Assembly (NCBI RefSeq): GCF_013004105.1 | Contig: NZ_CP053085.1 | Span: 2,542,001-2,606,000, forward strand | Direction of reading: 5' to 3' | Origin: Gemmatimonas groenlandica | GTDB taxonomy: Bacteria > Gemmatimonadota > Gemmatimonadetes > Gemmatimonadales > Gemmatimonadaceae | DNA: 64,000 bases | In this document: in pieces, positions 723 to 15,797 of the stretch | How positions within the stretch are numbered: the stretch's first letter is position 1 | Layout of the letters: each line of letters begins with the position of its first letter | Program-made: the position numbers and the translations under genes | The notes under the pieces: generated by a model | Told to the model about the DNA's origin: nothing | What the model saw: only the letters and a program-made list of their open reading frames with translations | Database searches by the model: none

Positions 723-1700
723 CTAGGCGGCGCTTTCACTCGGCTGCGGGACCGGCGCTCGCGCGACCTCTCGCTGCCGACGCCGTGCCGACTTCTCTTC
801 ATACATTCGCGCGTCGGCCTCGGCGACCAGCTCCGTCAGTGAAAGAGTCGACGACAAGACGTGCCGCACAAAGCCAAAACTGATCGACAGTTCAAACGCT
901 GGCGTCCAAGCGAGATTTTGCGCAGCTAGATGATGCCGGATACGCCAGGCGATATCCCGTTCGGCGTGCAACGGCACGTCGACTGCCAGAACGACAAACT
1001 CGTCGCCGCCCAGACGCGCGATCACGTCCGACGCACGAAACGCGCGGCTGAGTACGCTGCCGACTGCCTGGATCGCGCGATCCCCTGCCTCGTGACCGAA
1101 TTGGTCATTGATCGACTTGAGCCCGTCAAGATCCGCATACATCAACAGCACCTGGGTGTCGGCCGGGTACTCGCGAATTCGCTGCGAGCCGAGGAGGTGA
1201 AACCCCCGTCGGTTCTTGAGGCCGGTGAGTTCGTCCGTCACCGAGAGGCGCCGAATTTCCTCGAGCAGTGCGGCCCGCTGCCGTGCGTAGCGCAGCGCCC
1301 GCTCCAGTACAGGACCCGTGATCTCCTGCTTCACGAGGTACTCGGCTGCGCCCGCCCGCAGGGCCGCGAGATCGGTGTCCCGGTCTTCGACACCGGTGAG
1401 GAGCAGGATGGGAGTGCGACATCCAAACTCGGCGGCGGCGGTGAGAAGCTCGAGGCCGGTGCGGGCGCCAAGCTGGCAATCGAGCAGGCAGACGTCATGT
1501 GCCTCACGACGGAGCGCCGCTAATCCAGTTTCGTAGCTATCGGTCCACTCGAGCGAGAACAAGGCGCCCGGCACACGGTCGAGCAGCGTCCACGTGAGCA
1601 AAAAGTCGTCGATATCATCTTCAATGAGGAGAACCCGAATGGGCCGATGGACGTCCTCACCGTCGTTCGAGACGACCTCCGGAGCCTCAGTAACCAGCAC
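723..1700 (-). CDS. Response regulator with GGDEF diguanylate cyclase output
   Basis: Residues 20-140 form a receiver domain with acidic pocket EDD (27-29), phospho-acceptor Asp74 and Lys124. Residues 150-310 form a GGDEF domain with an intact GGDEF active site at 231-235. An RxxD product-inhibition site (R222-D225) lies five residues before it. The protein should make cyclic di-GMP from two GTP when phosphorylated, with product feedback. The layout matches WspR/PleD-type regulators. It starts with GTG and overlaps the preceding receiver gene by 14 nt, so the two are translationally linked. It is the last gene of the island, downstream of a histidine kinase and a single receiver. Confidence 0.9.
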   Translation of the reverse strand: MLVTEAPEVVSNDGEDVHRPIRVLLIEDDIDDFLLTWTLLDRVPGALFSLEWTDSYETGLAALRREAHDVCLLDCQLGARTGLELLTAAAEFGCRTPILLLTGVEDRDTDLAALRAGAAEYLVKQEITGPVLERALRYARQRAALLEEIRRLSVTDELTGLKNRRGFHLLGSQRIREYPADTQVLLMYADLDGLKSINDQFGHEAGDRAIQAVGSVLSRAFRASDVIARLGGDEFVVLAVDVPLHAERDIAWRIRHHLAAQNLAWTPAFELSISFGFVRHVLSSTLSLTELVAEADARMYEEKSARRRQREVARAPVPQPSESAA

Positions 1701-2157
1701 GCGACCCCGCCCTGGTGGGAAGTTCGACCATCTGGAACCAGTAGCGATCCAAGACCTGCATCACGCCCACCAACCCATTGAACGACACCGGTTTCATGAT
1801 GAACGAGTTGGCGCCGAGCTCGTAGGTCCGCAAAATGTCCTCCTCGTCTTTCGATGTCGTCAGCACGACGACAGGAATGCTGCGCAGCGCCGGATCGGCC
1901 TTAATCTCGCGCAGCGCTTCGCGTCCGTCCTTGCGCGGCATATTAAGGTCGAGGAGGATGAGGCCGGGCCTCGGCGCGGAGCCATGCTCGGCGTATCGTC
2001 CACGACCATGCAGATACTCGAGCAACTCTTCCCCGTCCTCGACGAACTGCAACAGATTGGCGACTCGACTCCGCTCGAACGCATCCCGCGCCAACTGCCG
2101 GTCATCTGCGTCATCCTCAGCCATCAGGATGACGGTAGGTCGAAAGGTGGGATTCAC
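1687..2157 (-). CDS. Single-domain response regulator (Rcp1-like)
   Basis: A 156-residue stand-alone receiver. It shows the acidic pair in MAEDDADD, the phospho-acceptor Asp in ILLDLNMPRKDG, the Thr in VVLTTSKDE and the Lys in FIMKPVSF. The long form with an aromatic tail (DRYWFQMVEL) resembles the Rcp1 family that partners phytochrome-like histidine kinases, and the gene directly upstream is such a kinase. The GTG start overlaps the kinase stop as GTGA. There is no output domain, so it probably acts by protein contact or as a phosphate shuttle to the receiver-GGDEF protein that follows. Confidence 0.88.
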   Translation of the reverse strand: MNPTFRPTVILMAEDDADDRQLARDAFERSRVANLLQFVEDGEELLEYLHGRGRYAEHGSAPRPGLILLDLNMPRKDGREALREIKADPALRSIPVVVLTTSKDEEDILRTYELGANSFIMKPVSFNGLVGVMQVLDRYWFQMVELPTRAGSRAGY

Positions 2158-3968
2158 GCCGTCGCTCCCTGTCCGCTGTCGTGAACGGGCAGCCGCACGA
2201 TGAACGTCGTCCCGACGCCCACCGTGCTTGTTGCCGTGATGTTGCCTCCGTGCCGTTCCACGATCTTGCGGCAGATAGCGAGTCCCATGCCCGTGCCGTC
2301 GAACACTCCGCGGCCATGCAGGCGCTGAAACGGATTGAAGATCCGGTCGAGAAATTTCTCGTCGAAGCCGATGCCGTTATCCTCCACCGCGATGCGGCAC
2401 CAGCGTCCGGTCGGCAACCCCCTGGTGTCCGTGCCGTCCTCTAGCCGGGCCCGGACGTCGACCATCGGCGGAATGCCTTCGCGATGAAACTTCAGCGCGT
2501 TGCCGATGAGATTCTGCAGGAGCTGGCGGCACTGCATCTGGTCAGCCAGCATGACCACCGGCAGATCGAGCGAGAGCCGTGCGCCTGGCTGCTGCATCAG
2601 GACGTCCAAATCGCGCCGGACGTCCTCCGCGATCTCGTTGAGGTCAACCGGCCGTAATGGATTGGGCTTGGTGGCGACGCGTGAAAACGACAAGAGATCC
2701 GAGATGAGATCCTGCATACGGCGTGCAGCATCGCGCATGCGAGACAGATAGTGTTGGCCAGGTCCGGCCAATGCCGCGTCGTAGTCTTCGAGCAGACGGT
2801 CACCAAATGCCTGAATCTTTCGCAGCGGCTCCTGAAGGTCATGCGACGCCACATACGCGAACTGCTCGAGCTCCTGATTCGATCGCGCCAACTCCCGACG
2901 CTGCCGTTCGAGCTCTGCCTCCACAGCGCGTCGATCGGTCACGTCGCGCGAATTCGCGATAATTCCGTTGATGGCTGGATTATTGACCAGATTCGTGCCG
3001 AGTGACTCAAGGACTCGCCAGGAACCGTCGGCATGGCGAAAGCGAAACTCGATCGTCACGCCCATGTTCGGAACCGACATCACTTGCTCCAGTGCACGCT
3101 TGACGCTCGTGCGGTCATCGGGATGCACGTAGTCAAAGAGCGACGCGCCCACGAGCTGCTGATGCGCGTATCCAAGCACCCGTGCGACGGACGGGCTCTC
3201 GTAGCTGATCGTGCCGTCGCCGCTCAGGATGGTCACGACGTCGGCAGCACGCTCGATCATCGAACGAAAGCGCTCCTCGCTGCGCAGCAGCGCAGCCTTT
3301 GCCTGGACGCGTTCGCGCGCGGCAAGGGCCCGTGACAGCAAGTCGGCGACCGACCCCGCGAAGGACTGTTCGTCGTCGGTCCACTCGCGAGGGCCCCCGA
3401 TGTGTTCGAGGCACACGACGCCCGTCAGCACGCCATTCGCCCACACGGGCGCGTCGAGCATCGATGTGATGCCGAGGGGAATAAGGTACGAATCGGCGAA
3501 CTCCGCCGTGCGCGGATCGGCTTGAGCGCAATGCGCCGCGACGATCCGCTCCGTTTCCATCGCCGTGAAGTACTTCGACAGGCCGGCTCGCGGCAATACC
3601 ATGCCGTGCGAATGTACTCCCGTCAGCGCATCGAACAGGTCGGCACAACGGATGCCGTCGCGCTCGTCGGCGGACATCCACACGCTGGCCCGCGCAACCG
3701 AGAGCGTCCGAGCGGCCGTCTCGGTGATCTCCGCGCCGGCCAGCGCCAGGTCGCCACTTTCAAGTCGGCTGCTCCGCGCGAGTGCAGCAAGTGCAGCACG
3801 CTGTCGATGGAGTCGGCTGTGCGCGCGCTCCAGCGCACCGCCGCGCCGCGTGAACGGCTCATCGGCACTGAGGGCTTCGGCATTATTCGCGTCACCGGCG
3901 ACCGCCGGATCGAGGGGGGGGCTCACCGCTGCGGCGGCGAGCAGTGGAACGAGGCTACTTCTTGGCAT
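2154..3968 (-). CDS. GAF-PAS sensor histidine kinase
   Basis: Positions below count from the longer TTG start at 4055. A GAF domain spans about 105-250 and a PAS domain about 255-375 (ITIEFRFRHADGSW style). A HisKA domain follows with phospho-acceptor His405 in YVASHDLQEPLRK, and an HATPase domain with N-box Asn519, DNGIGF at 559 and GTGMGLAI at 587. The DLQEPLRK form is typical of phytochrome-type and bacteriophytochrome-like kinases, but I see no chromophore Cys signature. I chose the ATG at 3966-3968 (603 aa). Neither start has a good ribosome binding site. No convincing membrane segments: a cytoplasmic sensor. It is translationally coupled to the receiver downstream and lies 127 nt after the BLUF gene (40 nt with the TTG start). 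Confidence 0.85.
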   Translation of the reverse strand: MPRSSLVPLLAAAAVSPPLDPAVAGDANNAEALSADEPFTRRGGALERAHSRLHRQRAALAALARSSRLESGDLALAGAEITETAARTLSVARASVWMSADERDGIRCADLFDALTGVHSHGMVLPRAGLSKYFTAMETERIVAAHCAQADPRTAEFADSYLIPLGITSMLDAPVWANGVLTGVVCLEHIGGPREWTDDEQSFAGSVADLLSRALAARERVQAKAALLRSEERFRSMIERAADVVTILSGDGTISYESPSVARVLGYAHQQLVGASLFDYVHPDDRTSVKRALEQVMSVPNMGVTIEFRFRHADGSWRVLESLGTNLVNNPAINGIIANSRDVTDRRAVEAELERQRRELARSNQELEQFAYVASHDLQEPLRKIQAFGDRLLEDYDAALAGPGQHYLSRMRDAARRMQDLISDLLSFSRVATKPNPLRPVDLNEIAEDVRRDLDVLMQQPGARLSLDLPVVMLADQMQCRQLLQNLIGNALKFHREGIPPMVDVRARLEDGTDTRGLPTGRWCRIAVEDNGIGFDEKFLDRIFNPFQRLHGRGVFDGTGMGLAICRKIVERHGGNITATSTVGVGTTFIVRLPVHDSGQGATA

Positions 3969-4095
3969 CAGGGGTCTGCAGCATCGCGACCAGCGCGATG
4001 GTAAACGGAAAGCCCGGAACAGTCGGGCGGCATGAGCACGCAATGGGTCCTGCAATCGAGCGCGAGACTTAGATGTCGCGAGTGACGGGCGTGCG

Positions 4096-4530
4096 TCAGC
4101 CGTGACGTGCCGGTAGGAGGCGCCGAAATTCGCGCAACACGGTCAGGGCGCGCTGTCCCGCTTCGACTTGCCCGAGCCCCTCACTGAGCGCGGCCGACAC
4201 GCGGGCCCGATCGTCCGCGGTGCCCGCCGTGTCGAGGTCAAGCGCCCCCATATACCAGCGCGGAAAGAGGCGCTGCGGTGCCGGTGCATGGATCAGCACG
4301 CGCACGTCGGTGTGCCGCGGGTCGATCGCGATACGCTTCATCAGTGCATCCAGGATACGGGCGCGCCCTTCCAGCAACTGCAGAAATGTGCCAGCGCTGT
4401 AGAGCAGCATGCCGGTTACGGCCACGGAATGATTTCGTGCTGCACTTTCTGCGGTCAGCGTGCGCAAATCATCCGTCGTGACGCGCTGGGTTGAGTGGCT
4501 CGTGTATAACAGGTGCGCGAGATAAGTCAT
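4096..4530 (-). CDS. BLUF-domain blue-light sensor
   Basis: The first 100 residues are a BLUF flavin-binding domain. All residues of the photocycle are present: Tyr9 (LLYTS), Asn33 (ARNHSV), Gln51 (FLQLLEG), Trp92 and Met94 (RWYMG). These line up almost number for number with the short cyanobacterial BLUF protein Slr1694 (Tyr8, Asn32, Gln50, Trp91, Met93). BLUF proteins bind FAD and shift hydrogen bonding around Gln in blue light. The remaining 45 residues look helical and carry no enzymatic output, so signalling must be through a partner. The gene sits between a c-di-GMP phosphodiesterase and a histidine kinase. The 218 bp upstream could hold its promoter but I see no clear consensus there. 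Confidence 0.9.
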   Translation of the reverse strand: MTYLAHLLYTSHSTQRVTTDDLRTLTAESAARNHSVAVTGMLLYSAGTFLQLLEGRARILDALMKRIAIDPRHTDVRVLIHAPAPQRLFPRWYMGALDLDTAGTADDRARVSAALSEGLGQVEAGQRALTVLREFRRLLPARHG

Positions 4531-4748
4531 GGGATCGCTCGGCCGGCGGCGGAAACGCTATCGGAGCGCGCGTTGCCGCGTAGAAACTCGGTCGCCGACG
4601 CGGAGACGAGATGCTTGGGCGCCCCGTACCCGGCTCTTCGGTTACGCATCAGTCGGCAATTCCGAAAAGCGAGCCGATCGTCGCCGTACCGCGAGCGAAT
4701 CAACCGACCGCCGCAGCGCCGTGCCGTCTGTCGTGACGCGCTCACCGA

Positions 4749-6407
4749 CTAACTCGCACGTGAGTGCATGGCAATCGCTGCGAAGGCGACGAATTCCGTG
4801 CTATCCCCCGCAACATCCATCTGCGCCGCGTCGCGTGATGCGACTAGAGGAAAAATAAAGTCTTCCGATGGGTTCAACTCCGTCGAGGCAGGTCGCCGTG
4901 CGAGATCGTTCGCCTGCACACGCATGAACGCGGCGACCACGGTCGGGTCGAAGTGTGAGCCGGCACCCTCGCGTAAGAAGGCGAGCGCGCGATCGACTGG
5001 CCATGCGGGCCGGTACGGTCGTGCATTCGCGAGCGCATCGTAGGCATCCGCGACCGCGACTATCCGTGCACCCAACGGGATCTCCGTCCCGGCGAGTTGG
5101 CGCGGATAACCGGTGCCGTCCCAACGCTCGTGATGCGCATGGGCGATCTGTTCGGCGAGACGAACGACGGGCGCGTTGCCACCGGACAGGAGCGCGGCTC
5201 CGAGCGCGGCGTGGGCTTGCATCTGCTCGCGTTCCTTCGCAGTCAACGGGCCCTCCTTGAGGAGAATAGCGTCCGGAACTCCGATCTTGCCGACGTCGTG
5301 GAGCGGAGCGGCTTGGCGGATGAGCTCGACCTCGGCAGGTGCCCATCCGAGCTCGTGTGCGATGAGCGCGGAGAGCTCACCGACGCGGCGCGTATGCAGA
5401 CCGGTCTCATCGTCGCGGACCTCCCCGGCGCGCGCGAGTCGCGCCAGTACCTCAGCCTGCGATGCACGCAGGCCGGCCTCGCTCGCTTCGAGTGCGGCGG
5501 CCGCCTGCCTCCGTGCGCTGATGTCTTCGATCACTTCGATGAAGTAAGCCGGCTCACCCGCGTCGTCGCGTACGAGCGAAACCGTGAGCAGGCCCCAGAC
5601 GGCGTGCCCATCGCGATGCCGATAGCACTTCTCACGCTGGTACCACATCACCACGCCGGTGAGCAGACCCGAGATCTGCGTAGCCTCCTCCGACTCGTCA
5701 GCGTCGTGATCGAAGTCTCGCGCAGTGCGCGTCTGTAGTTCGTGGTACGCATAGCCGAGAGTCTCGCAGAGTCGGCGATTGACGTGCAGCCAGCGGCCGT
5801 CCAGCCCGACGTGCGCAATGCCGACCGCCGCCTGCTCAAACGTTGCGCGAAATCGCTCTTCCGCGAGACCTGCATCTCGGCGAGCGACGGTCGCTTCACC
5901 GGCGTTCACGCGCGCCTCAATTTCTGCACTCGCAATGGAAGCGAGGTCGCGTAACGCTGCGATCTCGGCATTCGACCACACCCGCGGCTCCGTGTCTACC
6001 GCGCAGAACGATCCCAGCGTCCGACCGTCGGAGAGGGTGATGGGGGCGCCGGCATAGGCTCGAACCTGATGTGCCCTCACGCCGGGATGATCGCACACTA
6101 CCGCATGCGCCTGCGCATCGTCGAGAACGAGCTCCTTTCCGGAACCCACGACGTAGCGACAGAGCGAGTGCGACAAAGGCACCCCCCGCTGCGCCGCTAA
6201 TGTGCCGGTGAGCCCCTGGGCGCTCGTGATGACCTGATGCTCATCGGTCAGGAGCGACAAGAGTATCATGGGCGTGCCGAGAAGACTGGAGGCGAGCCGT
6301 GTAAGGCGGTCCAGTGCTTGATCCGGTACCCGCTCCGCGAGCAGGCCGCTGTGCGTGAGAGCAGCGAGGCGATTGGGGTCACGCAACACATCGTCGTGAG
6401 AGGACAT
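4749..6407 (-). CDS. GAF-PAS-HD-GYP cyclic di-GMP phosphodiesterase
   Basis: The 552-residue protein has an N-terminal GAF domain (about 22-165, with LGSFCAVDTEPR), a PAS domain with PAC segment (about 182-300) and a C-terminal HD-GYP domain (about 320-500). HD-GYP hallmarks are complete: HTRRVGELS, the HD pair at 370-371 in LHDVGKIGVPD, and HHERWDGTGYP at 425-435. The family hydrolyses c-di-GMP to pGpG or GMP with a di-metal centre. The protein has no membrane segment. It lies 57 nt downstream of the CheX-like gene and opposes the receiver-GGDEF enzyme further on. Confidence 0.92.
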   Translation of the reverse strand: MSSHDDVLRDPNRLAALTHSGLLAERVPDQALDRLTRLASSLLGTPMILLSLLTDEHQVITSAQGLTGTLAAQRGVPLSHSLCRYVVGSGKELVLDDAQAHAVVCDHPGVRAHQVRAYAGAPITLSDGRTLGSFCAVDTEPRVWSNAEIAALRDLASIASAEIEARVNAGEATVARRDAGLAEERFRATFEQAAVGIAHVGLDGRWLHVNRRLCETLGYAYHELQTRTARDFDHDADESEEATQISGLLTGVVMWYQREKCYRHRDGHAVWGLLTVSLVRDDAGEPAYFIEVIEDISARRQAAAALEASEAGLRASQAEVLARLARAGEVRDDETGLHTRRVGELSALIAHELGWAPAEVELIRQAAPLHDVGKIGVPDAILLKEGPLTAKEREQMQAHAALGAALLSGGNAPVVRLAEQIAHAHHERWDGTGYPRQLAGTEIPLGARIVAVADAYDALANARPYRPAWPVDRALAFLREGAGSHFDPTVVAAFMRVQANDLARRPASTELNPSEDFIFPLVASRDAAQMDVAGDSTEFVAFAAIAMHSRAS

Positions 6408-6464
6408 CAGGTGGCACCGAAACTGAAATTGAACGGTCTATGGAAGACGGCGCTCTTCCACTGC

Positions 6465-6950
6465 TTACGCCGCGAGCACGCGCACGTCGCGCCGAAAGAC
6501 ACCGACGTGCACCTGCGAACCCACACACTCGAACGCACACAGCGCGAGTTCCTGCCGATCAGGCATCCCGATGCGGAACTCCTTTCCGTCGACCACCCAC
6601 GGTAGACTCAGGGTGGCCGGTGCAACGAGGACCGATTTGAGATTTCCACCGATCATATTGGCGATCTCGCCGACGACGACGACGATATCGTCGTACGTCA
6701 AATCCTCGCCGCGTACATTCATCAGGGTCAGCGCGCACGCCCTGGCGATGCTCGGCGTCATCTGCACCGTGATCATGCCGCTCCATGCACCATCGAAGGC
6801 AACCACACCTGTGTAGCTGCTGGTCTCGCTGGCGCTGAACGGCAATACGCTGCTGGGGCGAATCGGAAGCCCGAGCATGGTGTCGAACAGGTCGACGATA
6901 CTCGATTCCACGGCATCGTGAAGACCTACGGGTGCAGCATCATGCGACAT
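6465..6950 (-). CDS. cheX: CheX/CheC-like CheY-phosphate phosphatase
   Basis: The core reads GVVAFDGAWSGMITVQM followed by the family motif ExxNxxxGN in GEIANMIGGNLKS, which in CheX and CheC holds the Glu and Asn that dephosphorylate CheY-P. The chosen ATG (MSHDAAP) overlaps the cheR end by 11 nt; a longer form would start at 6998. It is the last gene of the tightly packed che operon. CheZ is not seen in the window, so this is the likely signal-termination phosphatase. One ExxN helix is clear; I cannot see a second, which favours CheX over CheC. Confidence 0.75.
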   Translation of the reverse strand: MSHDAAPVGLHDAVESSIVDLFDTMLGLPIRPSSVLPFSASETSSYTGVVAFDGAWSGMITVQMTPSIARACALTLMNVRGEDLTYDDIVVVVGEIANMIGGNLKSVLVAPATLSLPWVVDGKEFRIGMPDRQELALCAFECVGSQVHVGVFRRDVRVLAA

Positions 6951-7803
6951 GCAGTTGTCCTCGGCCGATCGGCGCATCGGTGGTAAGTTGATAGGCAATG
7001 CCCTTGTGCCCGGTGACTCGGCGAAGCGAGTTGTCGATCATCAGCGTCGTTTCGGCCGAGCCCAGCATCAGATATCCGTGCGCCGGCATCAGCTCTCGGC
7101 AGCGCGCAAGAATCTCGCGCTTCGTCTCGACGTCGAAGTAAATGAGCACATTGCGCATCATCACGACGTCGCACTTGCCCAGCGCGGGCCATCGTTCGAG
7201 CAGATTCAGCTCACGAAACTCGACCATCTGTCGAATGTCCTCGCGCAGCTGCCATTGCGCTCCCTGCCGGGTGAAGTACTTGACGAGGAGTGGCGCCGGC
7301 AAGCCGCGGTTGACTTCGAGTTGCGAGAAGAGTCCCTCGCGCGCACGGGCGAGCACGGGGCGAGATAGATCAGTGGCGATGAACTTGATCTTCCAGTCCA
7401 CGAGATCCGGGAAGTGTTCCCGGATGAGCATGGCGACGCTGAACGGCTCCTGTCCGGTAGATGCAGCCGCGCACCAGATGGTCAGCGAGCGATCGTTTCG
7501 TCGGCGCGCGATCACGTCCGGCAAGATCACCGTGCGCAGCATCTCGAATGGATGAATGTCGCGGAAGAAGCTCGTTTCGTTGGTGGTAAGCGCCTCCTGG
7601 ACCTCCTTGTTCAGAGCCCCGGGAAGCCTTTTCATCAACGCGGCGGCCATCGCGTCGAGTGACGCAAAGCCGTGGGCGCGAGCAACAGGTACGAGGCGCG
7701 ACTCCACCAAGTACTCCTTGTCCGCGTCGAGAACGATGCCGGTATGGGTTTCGGCGAAGGTTCGGAAGAAGCGAAAGGTTTGGTCCGTCATTAGGGAGCT
7801 CAT
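6940..7803 (-). CDS. cheR: Chemotaxis protein methyltransferase CheR
   Basis: A 287-residue class I methyltransferase. It has the N-terminal all-helical domain and TNETSFFRD, the residues that contact receptor and substrate in CheR. The SAM-binding region is IWCAAASTGQEPFSVAM, followed by the acidic IATDLS and the catalytic-domain motif VMMRNVLIYFD. It methylates receptor glutamates using S-adenosylmethionine, acting against CheB for adaptation. Its start overlaps the cheB stop as ATGA. The soluble receptor at 9294-10907 is the obvious substrate. Confidence 0.93.
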   Translation of the reverse strand: MSSLMTDQTFRFFRTFAETHTGIVLDADKEYLVESRLVPVARAHGFASLDAMAAALMKRLPGALNKEVQEALTTNETSFFRDIHPFEMLRTVILPDVIARRRNDRSLTIWCAAASTGQEPFSVAMLIREHFPDLVDWKIKFIATDLSRPVLARAREGLFSQLEVNRGLPAPLLVKYFTRQGAQWQLREDIRQMVEFRELNLLERWPALGKCDVVMMRNVLIYFDVETKREILARCRELMPAHGYLMLGSAETTLMIDNSLRRVTGHKGIAYQLTTDAPIGRGQLHVA

Positions 7804-8912
7804 GTCATAACCTCTGAACGTCGCATGGGAGTGGTCGGTCGATTTGCACGGGGCCGAAAATGCCCGTCGATTTCGCGAGCCATGTCGTCGAGCTCGACAA
7901 TGCGATCCGCTGCGTCACTCGCCACGACTGCCCCGGGCATACCCCAGACGACGGAAGAGCTCTCATCCTGCGCAAAAACCGTTGCTCCGGCGGACCGGAG
8001 GAGCGTCGCACCAGCGGCCCCATCACGTCCCATGCCGGTCAGCACAACGGCGAGCGCGTCTCCTCCGTACGCGGCGTGCACCGCCCTGAACATCACGTCG
8101 ACCGCGGGACGGCATGAATGCTCGGGGGGGCCATCTCCGAGAGCGATGTATACGTGCCCTCCGTCGCGACGCAGGCCGAGATGGCGATCTCCGGGCGCGA
8201 CCCACGCCACCCCCGGAACGAGGCGCGCGCCGCTCTCCGCCTCGCGTACCTCCAGCGGTGAGAGCTGCGAGAGGCGCTCGGCAAGCATACGCGTGAACAT
8301 CGGTGGCATGTGTTGCGTGATCAGAACGGGAACAGGAAAGTCCGCAGGCAGCGCTGCCATGATGGTCGCCAGCGCCTTGGGCCCACCGGTGGATGTGCCG
8401 ATCGCTGCCACACGCGGCGTTCGACGCGCAGGATTCACTGTTGCCTTCGTTGCCAGCTTGGAGGGGTTCGGGCGCGCGCGTTCTGACGCAGCCGTTTGGC
8501 GAGACGGTGCACAAAGCGCGAGGATCCGCGATTCGAGCTCCTGTCGCACCCGCTGCCGGGCGATCAACAAGTCACCGCACTCCGAAGGCTTCAGTACGAG
8601 TTCACTCGCCCCGCGCGAAAGCGCCTGGACCGCCAGTACGGCTGTGCCGTCGGTGATACTCGAAAAGACGATGATCGGAAGGCGCGGATGCGTCTTGCGA
8701 AGCGCGACGATAGCATCCAGGCCGTTCATCTCCGGCATCTCCACGTCCATGATGACCACATCCGGAGACAGCTGTTCCACCTTTTGGAGTGCGAGGCGGC
8801 CGTTCGCTGCCGATCCGATCACGTCGATGTTGACACAGTCGCTGAGCGCGAGCGTTACCAGGCGCCGCATCGCGACGGAGTCGTCGACGACCAGGGCTCG
8901 AATTTTCAGCAC
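7800..8912 (-). CDS. cheB: Protein-glutamate methylesterase CheB
   Basis: An N-terminal receiver domain (phospho-acceptor Asp56 in VVIMDVEMPEMNG) is joined by a linker (about 135-165) to a methylesterase domain. The catalytic triad is visible: Ser174 in IGTSTGGP, His201 in ITQHMPP and Asp297 in LTGMGRDG. It removes methyl groups from, or deamidates, receptor glutamates when phosphorylated by CheA. It overlaps cheY by 7 nt and cheR by 4 nt. Length (370 aa) is normal for the family. Confidence 0.94.
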   Translation of the reverse strand: MLKIRALVVDDSVAMRRLVTLALSDCVNIDVIGSAANGRLALQKVEQLSPDVVIMDVEMPEMNGLDAIVALRKTHPRLPIIVFSSITDGTAVLAVQALSRGASELVLKPSECGDLLIARQRVRQELESRILALCAPSRQTAASERARPNPSKLATKATVNPARRTPRVAAIGTSTGGPKALATIMAALPADFPVPVLITQHMPPMFTRMLAERLSQLSPLEVREAESGARLVPGVAWVAPGDRHLGLRRDGGHVYIALGDGPPEHSCRPAVDVMFRAVHAAYGGDALAVVLTGMGRDGAAGATLLRSAGATVFAQDESSSVVWGMPGAVVASDAADRIVELDDMAREIDGHFRPRANRPTTPMRRSEVMT

Positions 8913-9286
8913 GGCAGACTCTCGATCACGTTGAGCTGAAGCAACTTGTCACGCAGCATGTCGCCGTTGAACGGCTTCATGACCCATTCGTTGGCGCCAC
9001 AAGCAAGAGCCTCCTGCATTTGGGCAGGATCGGTCTCGCTCGTTACCATCACAACCCGTACGTCGGCGTTGGCTGTGTTCGCCCTCATAGCGCGCACAAA
9101 GTCGATGCCATTCATGACCGGCATGTTCCAGTCGACGAGGACCACGGTGGGTTGCTCCGACGCGCCCAGCATGCCGAGGGCCTCGAGTCCGTTGGCGGCG
9201 TATCGCGGCTCGAGGCCGAAGGACGTGACCATCCGACCAATCAACGTGCGGATGGCGCGCGAGTCATCGATGATGAGAGCGTACAT
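8906..9286 (-). CDS. cheY: Chemotaxis response regulator CheY
   Basis: A 126-residue receiver with the acidic pair in IIDDSRAIR, phospho-acceptor Asp52 in VLVDWNMPVMNG, Thr in VVMVTSETD and Lys in WVMKPFNGD. The operon position between receptor and cheB supports a CheY role. The target may be the flagellar switch, or another output since no flagellar genes are in the window. It starts 7 nt after the receptor gene stop. Confidence 0.9.
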   Translation of the reverse strand: MYALIIDDSRAIRTLIGRMVTSFGLEPRYAANGLEALGMLGASEQPTVVLVDWNMPVMNGIDFVRAMRANTANADVRVVMVTSETDPAQMQEALACGANEWVMKPFNGDMLRDKLLQLNVIESLPC

Positions 9287-9293
9287 GGGCGTC

Positions 9294-10907
9294 TCAGTTG
9301 AATTGGGCGAGAACCGACTGCAGATACGCGGCCATCTCGGTCAGCTGCGCAGCACTTTCCATAGTCTTCGTCGCCCCTCGGGACGTCTCGACGGCCGCTT
9401 GGGCCACACCGACGATGTTTCCTGCAATTTCCGACGAGCCCTTCGCCGCTTCGGCCACGTTGCGACTCATTTCCGTGGTCGTGGCGGTCTGCTCCTCGAC
9501 GGCACTCGCAATCGTGGTCTGAATGTCCGCGATGCGATTGATGATCTCACCGATTTCACGGATCGCGCTGACAGCTCCTGCTGTATCCGTCTGGATCGCG
9601 TCGATCTTCTGGGAGATGTCCTCCGTTGCCTTCGCCGTCTCCTTCGCGAGCTCCTTGACCTCATTCGCGACGACGGCGAAGCCCTTCCCCGCTTCTCCAG
9701 CTCGAGCGGCTTCGATGGTGGCATTCAATGCGAGGAGATTGGTCTGCTGCGCGATTGACGTAATCACCTTCACCACCTTCCCGATCTCAGCACTGGATTC
9801 ACCGAGCTTGGCAACAAGGCCGTTGGTGGAATCCGCCACACGTACAGCATGCGACGCCACTTTGCTCGCTTCCGACGCATTGAGCGCAATTTCACGGATC
9901 GACGCACTCATTTCCTCGGTACCCGTCGCAACGGTGACCACGTTGTTGCTGACCTGTTCAGAAGCCGCCGTCACGACGTTGGCTTGCGCACTCGTTTCCT
10001 CGGCGCTCGCGCTCATCGACTGACTTGCCGTGGTCAGTTCGTCCGCGGCGACGGACAGCTGCGCCGCACTTTCGGTGACGGTCTTGAGCAGCAGGCGCTG
10101 CTGAACGGCATTTGATACCTCCCGGGCGTACTTCACGATCTTGTACGGCTTGCCGTTCAGGTCATAAATGGGATTGTACGAGGCGTTGATCCAGACTTCG
10201 TTCCCGCTTTTCCCGATCCGGCGGAATTCGCCAGCTTTGAATTCACCGGTGGCCAGGTCGCCCCAGAATTGTGCGTATGTCGGCAAGGCGGCTTCGGCGG
10301 GATCCATGAACATCCGATGATGCTTGCCACGAATCTCGTCGAGGGAATAGCCGAGCGCGTTCAGGAAGTGATGGTTGGCGTCGATGATGGTGCCGTCGAC
10401 GTGAAACGAGATGACCGCCTGGGCCTTGCTGATGGCGGCGATCTGCCCCTCGAAGTCCGCATTTCTGAGCTTCGCCACGGTGACATCGTTTGCGAACTTC
10501 ACGATCTTGAACGGCCTTCCGTTCAGGTCGAAGACGGGATTGTACGAGGCGTCGATCCAAACCTCACGGCCACCCTTGCCGATCCGCTTGTATTCCGCCT
10601 TCTCGAATTCACCACGACCCAGCTTCTCCCAAAATCGGCGGTAGTCTTCGCTCTGCGCATAGGCCGGCTCGACGAACATCCGGTGATGACGACCCTGGAT
10701 CTCGTCAAGCGAATAGCCAAGCGCGTGGAGAAAGTTGTCATTGGCCGTGATAACCGTACCATCAAGATCGAACTCGATAATCGCCTGCACTCGGTCCAGT
10801 GCGGCCAGGGATGCCTGCAGTGCATGCTGATCGACCTTGGACGCGGCCGAGCGTGGAGTGGTCGTGCCAACGGACCGACGGCTGGTGGGACGGACAGACG
10901 TTGCCAT
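9294..10907 (-). CDS. Soluble chemoreceptor with tandem PAS domains
   Basis: Two PAS domains (about 35-140 and 155-265) are followed by a methyl-accepting signalling domain. The hairpin tip has the conserved core around [20 protein letters not shown]. No transmembrane segment or HAMP domain is visible, so the receptor is cytoplasmic. The two PAS repeats are clearly related: both contain [10 protein letters not shown] or [19 protein letters not shown](D/N)ASYNP and IVK. That indicates a gene-internal duplication. The layout matches BdlA and Aer-like soluble receptors, where PAS binds heme, FAD or another redox or gas ligand. Ligand identity cannot be read from sequence. It sits between cheW and cheY. 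Confidence 0.92.
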
Positions 10908-10942
10908 GATGCGATTTCCTCGGAATTGGGGAGAGAGTTGGA

Positions 10943-11383
10943 TTAGATGGTGGCCGTCGTGACGGCGACGGCCCGATCGGTTTGCAGCGCGAGCAGGAGA
11001 CCAGTGTCGAGCTTGTAGACCCCCGCGAGGAGGTCGCGGACGGATGGCTCGATGGATTCGGGTACGCGCTCGAAGTCGCGCGGGTCGACCTCGATGACAT
11101 CTTCGATCGAATCCACCATGAGGCTCACCGCCCCGTCGTCTCCCCGCACCACCACGTGCATCGGCTCGTGCTCGGACAGACGCGATGTCAGCCCAAGCCG
11201 CCGACGAAGGTCGATGGCGGTCACGATCTGGCCGCGCAAATTGATGAGCCCTTCGACAGACGAAGGAGCAAGCGGAACACTGGTGATTTCCAGTGAACGA
11301 ATGACCTCTTGGACGCGCTGCACGTCGATGCCGAGAAAGAGGTCGTCGACTCGGAACGTGCAGAACTGTGTTGTCTCAGGCAT
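10943..11383 (-). CDS. cheW: Chemotaxis coupling protein CheW
   Basis: A single CheW domain ([39 protein letters not shown], then [11 protein letters not shown]). It links the receptor to CheA. I chose the ATG at 11381-11383 because GAGG lies 8 nt before it; it overlaps the cheA stop by 8 nt. In-frame starts further upstream (11398 and 11461) lie deeper inside cheA and lack a ribosome binding site. About 146 residues, normal for CheW. Confidence 0.9.
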
Positions 11384-13730
11384 GGGCGGCCTCGTCATGG
11401 TGGACGGTGTCAAGGGACGCCGGCAGTCGACCGTCAAGCGTGGCGAGCAACGATTGCACATCGAGCACGTCAGTGACTCGCCCCTGAATCACGGCCGTTC
11501 TGGCAACCATGCCGGTACCTGACGCACCGACGGTGTCCATTTCTACGGCAACCACGTCAAGGATGCGCTGCACGGCGAAGCCGATCGACCGCGTGGAATC
11601 CTCATAGACGATGAGCGGCATGGACTCCGCTCGACCGAGCGATGGGATGATGCCCTCGAGCATCTCGTCGAGCCGGACGACGGGCAGGATGCGCTTACGA
11701 TACTGGACGACCTCCTGCGATCCGGTCCACTCGATCTGACTGGACCGAATCTCCTCGAGTCGCGCGATCGCATCGAGCGGAAAGGCTACGATATGGGTGT
11801 CGTCGACGGCTACCAGCAGGAGCTGCTGTGAGTGCGCTTCCTGCGCCCGCTGATCAACGCGGCTCTCGGCTTGGCGATCGCCCCTGGCCAACAAGCCGCG
11901 TGATTGCGCCAGCCCGTGGACATCCAAGATCAGCGCGACGCGTCCATCGCCCATGATTGTGGCACCGGCGAATGCGGCGATGCCCTTGAGCTGAACACTC
12001 AGCGGCTTCACGACAATTTCTTCCGTGTCGTTGATGGCATCGACGATGACACCGAATGCCGTTCCTTCGGCCTGCACCACAACGATGTTGGTGACATCGT
12101 CCGTGGACTTGCCGCAGTGACGATCAACGCCGAGCGCTTCGGTCAGCGTGATCAACGGGAGAAGTCGACCGCGTAGCCGGAGAACCGGCGCATCGTAGAC
12201 GCGCTCGATGCGCGCGACGGCGTCAGCGCCCTCGAGCCGCACCAGCTCGAGCAGATTGACTTGCGGGATGACGAACCGACTTCCTCCCGTGGTCACGATC
12301 AGCCCGGGAATAATCGCCAGCGTGAGAGGGATCTTGATGCGGAGTGTGGTACCATTCCCCACGACACTCGAGACCTCGAGCGAACCGCCGATGCGCTCGA
12401 TATTGGTGCGCACGACATCCATGCCCACGCCGCGCCCCGACACGTTGGTGACGGTTTTTGCGGTGGAGAGACCAGCGTGGAAGATGAGGTGGAGTGCCTC
12501 GCGATCCGACATCTGCGCCGCTGCATCAGCGCGCACCGCGCCCATCGAGATCGCCTTGGCTTTGATGGCCTCGGGGTCGATGCCTCGCCCGTCATCGCGG
12601 ATTTCGATGTTGACTTTGCCGCCCTCATGGAACGCTCGGATGATGAGTCGGCCCTCAGGGCTTTTCCCATGGCGGACACGCTCGATCGGCGTTTCGACGC
12701 CGTGGTCGACGGCATTCCGCACGATGTGCGTCAGTGGGTCTTTGATTGCCTCGATGATCGTCTTGTCGAGTTCTGTCTCGGCGCCGGCCATCTCGAGCAC
12801 CACTTGCTTTCCGCATGCCTGTGCAAGATCGCGCACGACGCGCGGAAACTTGTTCCACACGTTGCCGATGGGCTGCATCCGGGTCTTCATGACCCCTTCC
12901 TGCAGTTCGGTCGTGATCAGGTTCAGTCGTTGGGTCGTTCCCGTGTGCGCGGCGGCGTCAAAACGACCATCCGATTGCAGCAGTTGGTTACGCGCGAGCA
13001 CCAACTCACCGACCAAGTTCATCAACTTGTCGAGTAGCGCGACATCAACCCGTATGGAGGAGTCCGCGATCGCGCTTGACTTGATGTCGACGTTGTTTTC
13101 CTGGACGTCCAGTGCCTCACGAACAGCGGCGGGTGACGTGTAGCCACGCTGCACGAGAATCTCTCCGAGCAGGGCGTCGGATTGCTCCTGCTCATGGAGG
13201 GCGGCGGATACGTCGCTGGCGGTGACGTCGCCGCGCGCGACCATCAGCTCGCCGATTGGAGGATGTGTCCCCTCGGCCGTTTCTGAGGTCGGCATGGACG
13301 CTGCAGCGGCAGCGGCAGCGCCGTGGGCGTCAGCGTGCTCGCGAGTGAGCGCGGTGAGCCGAGCGATGAGCGCCTGAAACGTGGGCTCGCCGTCGGTGCC
13401 AGTTTGCTCGATGAGGTTCAACATCAAGCGGATGGCGTCGACCAAGGCGAGGAGCGCATCCACCACCTCCGGCGTCACTGCGGTCGTGCCGTCTCGCAGC
13501 TCTACCAGCAGGTTCTCGCCAACATGCGTCACCGACTCCAACACGGAAAACCCGAGAAAGCCGCAGGTGCCTTTCAGCGTGTGCACACATCGAAAGATCC
13601 GTCCGATGCGCTCCGCGTCAGGGCCTTCTCGTTCCAGGTCCATCAGGTCTTGGTCCACCTGATCGAGTCCCTCGAGACTTTCGATCAAGAAGTCCTTGAC
13701 GATTTCGGCGGTGTCGTTGACTCCGTCCAT
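11376..13730 (-). CDS. cheA: Chemotaxis histidine kinase CheA with two CheW-like domains
   Basis: A 784-residue kinase. The HPt domain at 1-110 carries phospho-acceptor His50 in VHTLKGTCGFLG. Residues about 155-212 hold two short repeats (PIGELMVARGDVTASDV and LGEILVQRGYTSPAAV) of the MshEN/GspE-N type. Dimerisation runs about 225-300. The catalytic domain has HIVRNAVDHG at 335, DDGRGID at 379 and GRGVGMDVV at 432. A regulatory CheW-like domain (about 475-610) is followed by a second one (about 640-770). Standard CheA has one. No CheY-binding P2 domain is recognisable; the repeats occupy that place. It is the first gene of the che operon, with a dyad upstream at 13759-13785. Confidence 0.94.
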   Translation of the reverse strand: MDGVNDTAEIVKDFLIESLEGLDQVDQDLMDLEREGPDAERIGRIFRCVHTLKGTCGFLGFSVLESVTHVGENLLVELRDGTTAVTPEVVDALLALVDAIRLMLNLIEQTGTDGEPTFQALIARLTALTREHADAHGAAAAAAASMPTSETAEGTHPPIGELMVARGDVTASDVSAALHEQEQSDALLGEILVQRGYTSPAAVREALDVQENNVDIKSSAIADSSIRVDVALLDKLMNLVGELVLARNQLLQSDGRFDAAAHTGTTQRLNLITTELQEGVMKTRMQPIGNVWNKFPRVVRDLAQACGKQVVLEMAGAETELDKTIIEAIKDPLTHIVRNAVDHGVETPIERVRHGKSPEGRLIIRAFHEGGKVNIEIRDDGRGIDPEAIKAKAISMGAVRADAAAQMSDREALHLIFHAGLSTAKTVTNVSGRGVGMDVVRTNIERIGGSLEVSSVVGNGTTLRIKIPLTLAIIPGLIVTTGGSRFVIPQVNLLELVRLEGADAVARIERVYDAPVLRLRGRLLPLITLTEALGVDRHCGKSTDDVTNIVVVQAEGTAFGVIVDAINDTEEIVVKPLSVQLKGIAAFAGATIMGDGRVALILDVHGLAQSRGLLARGDRQAESRVDQRAQEAHSQQLLLVAVDDTHIVAFPLDAIARLEEIRSSQIEWTGSQEVVQYRKRILPVVRLDEMLEGIIPSLGRAESMPLIVYEDSTRSIGFAVQRILDVVAVEMDTVGASGTGMVARTAVIQGRVTDVLDVQSLLATLDGRLPASLDTVHHDEAAHA

Positions 13731-13785: not shown

Positions 13786-13855
13786 GCTTGTGTACTTATG
13801 GACGAGAGTCTTTCATTCCGGTAACCAAACTGCTCAATTTCGGATTGGGGAATGC

Positions 13856-13890
13856 AAAAGCCCCCGACGCGCTATTGCACGGCGGGGGCT
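13856..13890 (-). terminator. Rho-independent terminator of the TetR gene
   Basis: AGCCCCCG / CGGGGGCT stem with a 16-nt loop, followed on the minus strand by TTTT. It lies 24 nt beyond the stop of the TetR gene and separates it from the che operon promoter. Confidence 0.75.
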
Positions 13891-13913
13891 CCAAGTAGTT
13901 GCTATTTATTACT

Positions 13914-15446: not shown

Positions 15447-15475
15447 AAGTCGTTTAAAATCAACGATGAAACAAG

Positions 15476-15548
15476 AGCGGGAGACGGGACTCGAACCCGC
15501 GACATCAAGCTTGGAAGGCTAGCGCTCTACCAACTGAGCTACTCCCGC
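15476..15548 (-). tRNA. tRNA-Gly (anticodon TCC)
   Basis: The acceptor stem GCGGGAG/CTCCCGC, D-arm AGCTCAGTTGGTAGAGC, anticodon loop CTTCCAA and T-arm GCGGGTTCGAGTCCCGT are all present. The discriminator is T and CCA is not encoded. The second anticodon-stem pair is a T-T mismatch. It is last in a Thr-Tyr-Gly operon. Confidence 0.95.
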
Positions 15549-15590
15549 GTTCTTCTATGCTACCCGCTGGAATGACCAGCGGTCCTGCAG

Positions 15591-15673
15591 TGGTGGGGGA
15601 AGGATTCGAACCTTCGAAGGCTTGCGCCGACAGATTTACAGTCTGTTCTCGTTGGCCACTTGAGTACCCCACC
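15591..15673 (-). tRNA. tRNA-Tyr (anticodon GTA)
   Basis: Acceptor stem GGTGGGG/CCCCACC, anticodon loop CTGTAAA and a long class II variable arm are present, as expected for bacterial tRNA-Tyr. The discriminator is A; CCA is not encoded. It is the middle gene of the tRNA operon. Confidence 0.95.
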
Positions 15674-15724
15674 GGGGGCTCTCTCCGACGCGCCATTGCG
15701 GGCGCGGCTGCCGAGCTTTGAAAG

Positions 15725-15797
15725 AGCTGACGGTCGGGATTGAACCGACGACCTGCTGATTACAAATCAGCTGCTCTACCAACTGAGCTACGTCAGC
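15725..15797 (-). tRNA. tRNA-Thr (anticodon TGT)
   Basis: Acceptor stem GCTGACG/CGTCAGC, D-arm AGCTCAGTTGGTAGAGC, anticodon loop TTTGTAA and T-arm GTCGGTTCAATCCCGAC. The discriminator is T; CCA is not encoded. It is first in the operon. The order Thr(TGT)-Tyr-Gly(TCC) is the same as in the conserved tRNA cluster before tuf in many bacteria. Confidence 0.95.

Follow-up and report, generated by a model that had tools for sequence, protein, structure and literature searches.

Does a chemosensory array encoded beside enzymes of cyclic di-GMP (c-di-GMP) turnover make this messenger or read it? The question is raised by positions 723-13730 of a 64,000-nucleotide stretch of the Gemmatimonas groenlandica genome (contig NZ_CP053085.1, positions 2,542,001 to 2,606,000; the whole stretch is called the window hereafter). 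Strain TET16 is described as an aerobic anoxygenic phototroph (PMC7844134), flagella on G. groenlandica cells are reported from electron microscopy (PMC9862903), and reaction-centre genes were found in the genome, which is a single contig of 5,179,092 bp.

A preliminary description of this locus had proposed a twelve-gene island on the minus strand. Twelve open reading frames were confirmed at exactly 723-13730, and Pfam returned the domains that had been named, in the order CheA, CheW, PAS-PAS-MCP, CheY, CheB, CheR, CheX, GAF-PAS-HD-GYP, BLUF, GAF-PAS-histidine kinase, receiver and receiver-GGDEF. Judged by gene order and phylogeny, the che part of this island duplicates, in diverged form, the che operon of Gemmatimonas flagellar clusters. 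Its CheA carries a segment of a c-di-GMP-binding type, which makes c-di-GMP more likely to be an input to the window CheA than an output of the array.

Relation of the window operon to the flagellar-cluster che operon

Four CheA loci are present in the G. groenlandica genome. At one of them (L039, C1:3208159), which had gone unmentioned in the preliminary description, a complete cheA-W-mcp-Y-B-R-X operon is located between fliP and fliQ-fliR-flhB-flhA, with FliM 3 kb upstream. The whole fliP-che-fliQ-fliR-flhB-flhA insertion was also detected in L042, L043, L044 and L045, and in L047 fliP is followed by cheA, where the contig ends. The window operon (6465-13730) has the identical gene order, and its CheA is 59% identical to the flagellar-cluster CheA of L039. 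A tree built from 32 CheA cores placed the window CheA as sister of the six flagellar CheAs (support 99/98), and this position persisted (99/97) when selected Acidobacteria, Planctomycetota and Actinobacteria rows were added. A tree of CheB and CheR (23 rows) agreed, with the window as sister to the flagellar copies at 99/98. A horizontal origin from Acidobacteria, in which CheAs with the same type of segment also occur, was considered and is not favoured, as the window CheA still groups with the flagellar Gemmatimonas CheAs.

Besides the gene order, the two operons share a PAS receptor, CheX and a CheA with an MshEN-type segment and two P5 domains. The window copy differs in being outside the flagellar cluster (the slot between fliP and fliQ is occupied by L039), in the sequence of its CheA (~59% identity), in having no Arg at the first position of its two MshEN motifs, and in a Trp in CheY. 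Among 30 congeneric genomes, many of which are incomplete, CheA matches at E <= 1e-120 were obtained in 13, and only G. groenlandica gave two; FliM was present in 26 of the 30.

It had been stated that the window contains no flagellar gene. This held for FliP, FliQ, FliR, FlhB and FlhA (none at E <= 1e-4 in 64 kb) and for FliM, whose sole genomic site is outside the window; other flagellar genes were not searched. Since the closest kin of the window operon reside in flagellar clusters, the absence of flagellar genes nearby is by itself no pointer to a non-motile output.

All genes of the window operon are on the minus strand. The first, cheA (11376..13730), encodes a protein of 784 aa with the layout P1(Hpt)-MshEN-type-P3-P4-P5-P5 (Pfam, NCBIfam NF053729); its second C-terminal CheW domain (P5) was identified by Pfam and had not been mentioned earlier. 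When read from its first possible start, cheW (10943..11461; Pfam CheW) overlaps the 3' end of cheA. It is followed by the gene of the chemoreceptor with PAS-PAS-MCP signalling domain architecture (9294..10907; Pfam), by cheY (8906..9286; Pfam), cheB for a receiver-methylesterase (7800..8912; Pfam), cheR (6940..7803; Pfam) and cheX (6465..6998; Pfam), in which the ExxN motif is intact. The receptor had been called soluble and double-PAS, in agreement with the lack of any transmembrane-like stretch in its hydropathy profile (maximum 19-residue hydropathy 1.03). A soluble PAS-PAS-MCP architecture is shared with BdlA, a likeness at the level of architecture.

A candidate c-di-GMP-binding module inside CheA

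NCBIfam NF053729 matched residues 158-210 of the window CheA (13101..13259, minus strand, as calculated from the residue numbers) with 44.3 bits against a cut-off of 38, a feature absent from the preliminary description. The segment consists of two 24-residue motifs joined by a 5-residue linker (24+5+24), and a sequence search of the PDB with the window CheA found PilF (E 2e-6, residues 146-209). With a profile built from eight such CheAs, matches were obtained to CheAs in contigs filed under Acidobacteria, Terriglobia, Proteobacteria, Acidimicrobiaceae and actinobacteria. Residues described as contacting c-di-GMP in MshE include Gly3 and Gln24, in each of the two motifs, and Leu21 (PMC5013675). 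Invariant in all 17 aligned CheAs, the window included, were Gly3 and Gln24 in each motif and Leu21 in motif II (the alignment leaves out the near-duplicates L043, L107 and L109 and the weak L066-L069); in the window segment Leu21 is kept in motif I as well.

The predicted fold of the segment alone has four helices (pLDDT 82, pTM 0.64); the model with P3 attached was weaker (pTM 0.42). Structural alignment of the prediction to c-di-GMP-bound PilF GSPIIB and MshE gave six best Z scores of 10.0-10.9 (root-mean-square deviation 1.3-2.6 over 57-60 residues), and the best unrelated row reached Z 5.4. The putative MshEN assignment is carried by the sequence evidence. The segment thus resembles the MshEN of Vibrio cholerae MshE and the GSPIIB of Thermus thermophilus PilF in profile, 24+5+24 layout, four helices and conserved Gly and Gln, and differs from them in being inside a CheA and in the absence of the first Arg of both motifs.

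Within CheA the segment sits between the Hpt and the dimerisation domain, where the P2 docking domain usually lies. From this position c-di-GMP, if still bound, would act on the transfer from P1 to CheY and CheB. To our knowledge, the known links between c-di-GMP and chemotaxis act on the receptor, CheR or the motor; a CheA with an internal module of this type would, if true, let c-di-GMP enter signalling directly at the kinase. Several Gemmatimonas encode such a CheA in their flagellar che operon, and others are found on contigs filed under Acidobacteria and actinobacteria. G. groenlandica, a cultured, flagellated phototroph, has two copies of this CheA that allow a clean comparison, with the motif II Arg present in one and absent in the other. 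CheA was already listed among the MshEN-containing proteins by Wang et al., 2016 (PMC5013675), and no functional study of an MshEN-CheA turned up in a literature search of limited depth. By eye, the CheA at L049 1895-4189 seems to retain no more of the MshEN segment than its tail, a possible partial loss.

The genes behind cheX

The gap sizes given earlier were correct: 57 bp separate cheX from the HD-GYP gene, and 218 bp separate the latter from the BLUF gene. The GAF-PAS-HD-GYP protein (4749..6407, minus strand; Pfam HD_5 and motifs) is predicted to be a c-di-GMP phosphodiesterase. Behind the BLUF gene, and likewise on the minus strand, follow genes for a GAF-PAS histidine kinase (2154..4055; Pfam), a single-receiver response regulator (1687..2157; Pfam), which overlaps the kinase gene by 4 bp, and a receiver-GGDEF protein (723..1700; Pfam), which overlaps the response regulator gene by 14 bp; overlapping one after another, these three form a unit. 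The receiver-GGDEF protein has an intact active site and, as had been claimed, an intact inhibitory site, with the GGDEF motif and the RxxD I-site both found. As GGDEF and HD-GYP motifs are both present, the claim that the island encodes a candidate c-di-GMP synthase as well as a candidate hydrolase stands on motif grounds. The motifs of the histidine kinase, receivers, BLUF, CheX (ExxN) and CheA were all in place.

Conservation of this arrangement was followed in nine other Gemmatimonadota loci with the operon (L039, L042-L045, L049-L051 and L058, in the last of which the receptor gene comes first; L051 stops shortly past cheX). No match to HD-GYP, BLUF, response regulator or GGDEF was obtained behind cheX in these nine loci. 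A distant histidine kinase (32-34% identity) lies behind cheX in L050 and, directly, in L058. Among the best 80 of 583 named loci, many of which are cut before or soon after cheX, L124 has a BLUF gene after cheX, and L175 has GGDEF and HD-GYP genes on the opposite strand past cheB. In the matches listed from 118 family genomes, no homologue above 45% identity was seen for the receiver-GGDEF protein (E <= 1e-40) and none above 53%, over the core only, for the histidine kinase (E <= 1e-70). Histidine kinase-response regulator pairs without a visible adjoining GGDEF gene were seen in two short loci, L103 and L104. A conserved twelve-gene island is thus rejected for the sampled relatives, in which the tail set was not found behind cheX; for the tail, this sample shows the lack of a conserved neighbourhood that the preliminary description had named as refuting its reading.

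Random placement was used to judge the proximities, each chosen post hoc. One of the 8 HD_5 matches of the genome would fall within 100 bp of one of the four che clusters with a chance of ~0.001, and for a GGDEF gene to lie no more than 6 kb from a che cluster the chance is ~0.23. Across loci, GGDEF or HD-GYP genes were found near MshEN-CheA genes in 4 of 22 loci versus 3 of 86 (Fisher 0.03), a count in which L107 and L109 (repeats of L043 and L047) and L040 and L041 (other CheA classes of the G. groenlandica genome) were dropped and in which contig ends truncate flanks. These four include the window, without which the count is 3 of 21. In a distant phylum member (G007), a receiver-HD-GYP gene lies directly before a cheA with MshEN-like halves (L066 15-4220).

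BLUF genes and chemosensory operons in the family

The BLUF gene of the island (4096..4530, minus strand) encodes a short protein of 144 aa (Pfam BLUF 93.1 bits; motifs). The flavin-site residues of BLUF domains, Tyr, Asn and Gln, are all kept in the window BLUF domain. BLUF was detected in 15 of 119 family genomes, with 22 matches. Five of these matches (in G039, G281, G184, G243 and G134; loci L052, L053, L055, L057 and L061) are divergent from, and within ~1 kb of, another cheA with two P5 domains; a sixth match is that of the window. No MshEN segment was seen in the CheAs of the five BLUF-divergent operons. Around the other 16 BLUF genes, some of them on short contigs, no match to cheA, cheW or receptor was seen.

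In the CheA tree, the five BLUF-linked CheAs form one clade (100/99) with that of G249, which has no adjoining BLUF gene; the single clade suggests that the pairing may trace to one event. All five genomes carry reaction-centre genes. Such genes are present in 23 of 118 genomes and in 12 of the 15 BLUF genomes (Fisher ~5e-8, with two draws taken as one set), and the divergent BLUF-cheA arrangement in phototrophic relatives is a recurrent light-chemosensory pair worth a study of its own. The window BLUF is 31-37% identical to the cheA-linked BLUFs, which are 45-59% identical to each other. Orthology of the window BLUF to them is not supported at this identity; a BLUF tree was not used, as the window is on a very long branch.

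A BLUF gene adjoining che has precedents. Spongiibacter nanhainus has a BLUF gene in front of a che/MotAB cluster, whose genes are reported to lose their response to blue light when the BLUF gene is deleted (PMC8805636). The window shares the BLUF-che proximity and differs in that the HD-GYP gene stands between BLUF and che and that histidine kinase, response regulator and receiver-GGDEF genes follow. In L124, a Planctomycetota contig (one of the 80 named loci), the che operon has the same gene order and the BLUF gene comes right after cheX. BLUF beside che is therefore recurrent, already published and found in several arrangements, and the earlier statement that a run of Che, BLUF and c-di-GMP genes is unusual does not hold for its BLUF-che part; the tail set was not found behind this operon in the sampled relatives.

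A short BLUF protein working with a c-di-GMP phosphodiesterase is described for PapB-PapA of Rhodopseudomonas palustris (PMC8846402). The window BLUF is likewise short; PapA has an EAL domain, whereas the neighbouring predicted phosphodiesterase here is an HD-GYP protein. Related BLUF genes (73% identical), each adjoining a GGDEF gene, were found elsewhere in the G. groenlandica genome (L076, ~6813-8487) and in G304 (L086, ~7850-9800).

Proposed working of the array and alternative explanations

We propose that the diverged flagellar-type che copy forms an array that would read c-di-GMP rather than make it, and consider the chances of this reading as a whole to be even. By analogy to the families concerned, the soluble PAS receptor and CheW would set CheA activity in a cytoplasmic array, CheA would phosphorylate CheY, CheX would dephosphorylate it, and CheR and CheB would adapt the receptor. 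If c-di-GMP is still bound by the MshEN-type module, it would modulate the P1 transfer to CheY and CheB, and the HD-GYP protein, probably encoded on the same transcript as che, would feed back on CheA by lowering c-di-GMP. In the neighbouring BLUF-kinase-regulator module, the histidine kinase may drive both receivers, that of the response regulator and that of the receiver-GGDEF protein, and the BLUF protein may add blue light through protein contact, so that this group would raise or tune c-di-GMP in response to light. Such a light link is plausible but separate from the c-di-GMP input. That both join in a closed loop, in which the BLUF-driven kinase and cyclase turn light into c-di-GMP, c-di-GMP gates CheA via MshEN with a dedicated HD-GYP, and swimming is tuned by a drifted flagellar che copy, appears decidedly unlikely.

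Several observations weigh against c-di-GMP binding by the window CheA and against a flagellar output of the array. Pfam T2SSE_N gave no match on the segment even at E 1, and in L066-L069, more distant CheAs with MshEN-like halves or a weaker form, the contact residues are not all kept. In the window CheA the Arg at position 1 of both motifs is replaced, by Pro in motif I and Leu in motif II, and at position 17 each motif has Val in place of Leu; Arg9 is described as important in MshE (PMC5013675). The flagellar CheA of the same genome (L039) retains the second-motif Arg, and L044 and L045 retain both. The PilF K167L entry 8pe0, c-di-GMP-bound by its title (no describing paper was found, and the bound state is taken from the title alone), has Leu at both Arg positions, so that loss of the Arg need not abolish binding; on these residues, it weakens but does not end the case for c-di-GMP binding by the segment. 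In the structural comparison, Foldseek gave a probability of 1.00 yet a best E of 0.02, with none reaching 0.001, the aligner warns that Z below ~13 may reflect an arrangement common in helical bundles, and the non-binder XpsE also aligned with the predicted segment (Z 7.8). An HD-GYP gene directly behind cheX was found in G. groenlandica only. As for the output, the window CheY has Trp101 at the position of Tyr106 in Escherichia coli CheY, as matched via the KPF motif; the best CheY matches, obtained from 73 of 111 loci including a few duplicates, have Tyr in 66 of 73 and otherwise Trp (2), Leu (4) or Phe (1). The window CheA branch is long (0.51 versus 0.00-0.14 for the flagellar copies). 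E. coli CheY Y106W is described as hyperactive, and V. cholerae CheY4, with a natural Trp at this position, as not binding FliM (PMC3774744). Trp101, the CheY4 precedent and the long branch together suggest that the output of the window array may no longer be the flagellar motor.

The preliminary description had favoured a different circuit, in which CheA phosphorylates the receiver-GGDEF protein and array activity leads to c-di-GMP. The Wsp system, in which CheA is fused to a receiver and the receptor is membrane-bound, likewise combines Che proteins with a receiver-GGDEF protein in a single region, and the window receiver-GGDEF gene is on the same strand as che and retains phosphoacceptor, active site and I-site. 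However, the window CheA has no receiver domain (Pfam), CheY and CheX are present, the receptor is soluble, four genes separate cheX from the receiver-GGDEF gene, the latter overlaps the response regulator gene and is accompanied by the histidine kinase gene, to which the overlap points, and the tail was not found behind the operon in sampled relatives. Together with the origin of the operon as a copy of a flagellar che operon, this makes a Wsp-like output very unlikely; of the proposed connection between c-di-GMP and the array, what stands is a possible link through the MshEN-type CheA module and the HD-GYP gene 57 bp past cheX. Alternatively, BLUF could act directly on CheA, CheY or the receptor in a blue-light taxis array controlling swimming, as would fit the 5 of 22 BLUF matches divergent beside cheA, all in genomes with reaction-centre genes, the L124 arrangement and the Spongiibacter precedent (PMC8805636). 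Since the window BLUF is distant from the cheA-linked BLUFs, the pairing probably arose separately here; the BLUF gene is also beyond the HD-GYP gene and a 218-bp gap, and the post hoc chance that one of the four BLUF genes of the genome falls within 3 kb of one of the four che clusters is ~0.04, all of which leaves direct action of BLUF on the array unlikely.

The island might also consist of two or three unrelated signalling modules that became neighbours by chance in a signalling-rich, rearranging region. The tail is not found as a set in the sampled relatives, decayed genes lie on the left flank, and by random placement the chance of a GGDEF gene this near to che is ~0.23; twelve codirectional genes with a single internal terminator-like site, at the start of the histidine kinase gene, and an HD-GYP gene merely 57 bp past cheX argue the other way. 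We regard chance assembly as unlikely.

Transcription signals and flanking sequences

A hairpin resembling an intrinsic terminator was found by eye in the interval between a TetR gene and cheA (13848..13895, minus strand; stem -28 kcal/mol followed by TTTT, z -4.55); it was not listed by the consensus terminator scan. From its position, cheA should start its own transcript from its own promoter. No terminator-like site was seen in the 57-bp gap between cheX and the HD-GYP gene. The site in the histidine kinase gene is the sole minus-strand one listed inside the twelve genes by a scan that gave fewer sites than shuffled sequences. A sigma-70 scan returned 2 sites, both on the plus strand and not above chance. 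Base composition of the region revealed no clear island, and Rfam identified three tRNAs only (Gly, Tyr and Thr; 15475-15797, minus strand), 1.7 kb upstream of cheA.

On the left, the island is flanked by decayed c-di-GMP genes. At ~518-662 on the plus strand lies an HD-GYP gene remnant that has lost its middle and of which the part bearing the HD motif and a C-terminal part are left, and immediately left of the window (L187 13182-13670, minus strand) is a GGDEF gene interrupted by a stop codon.

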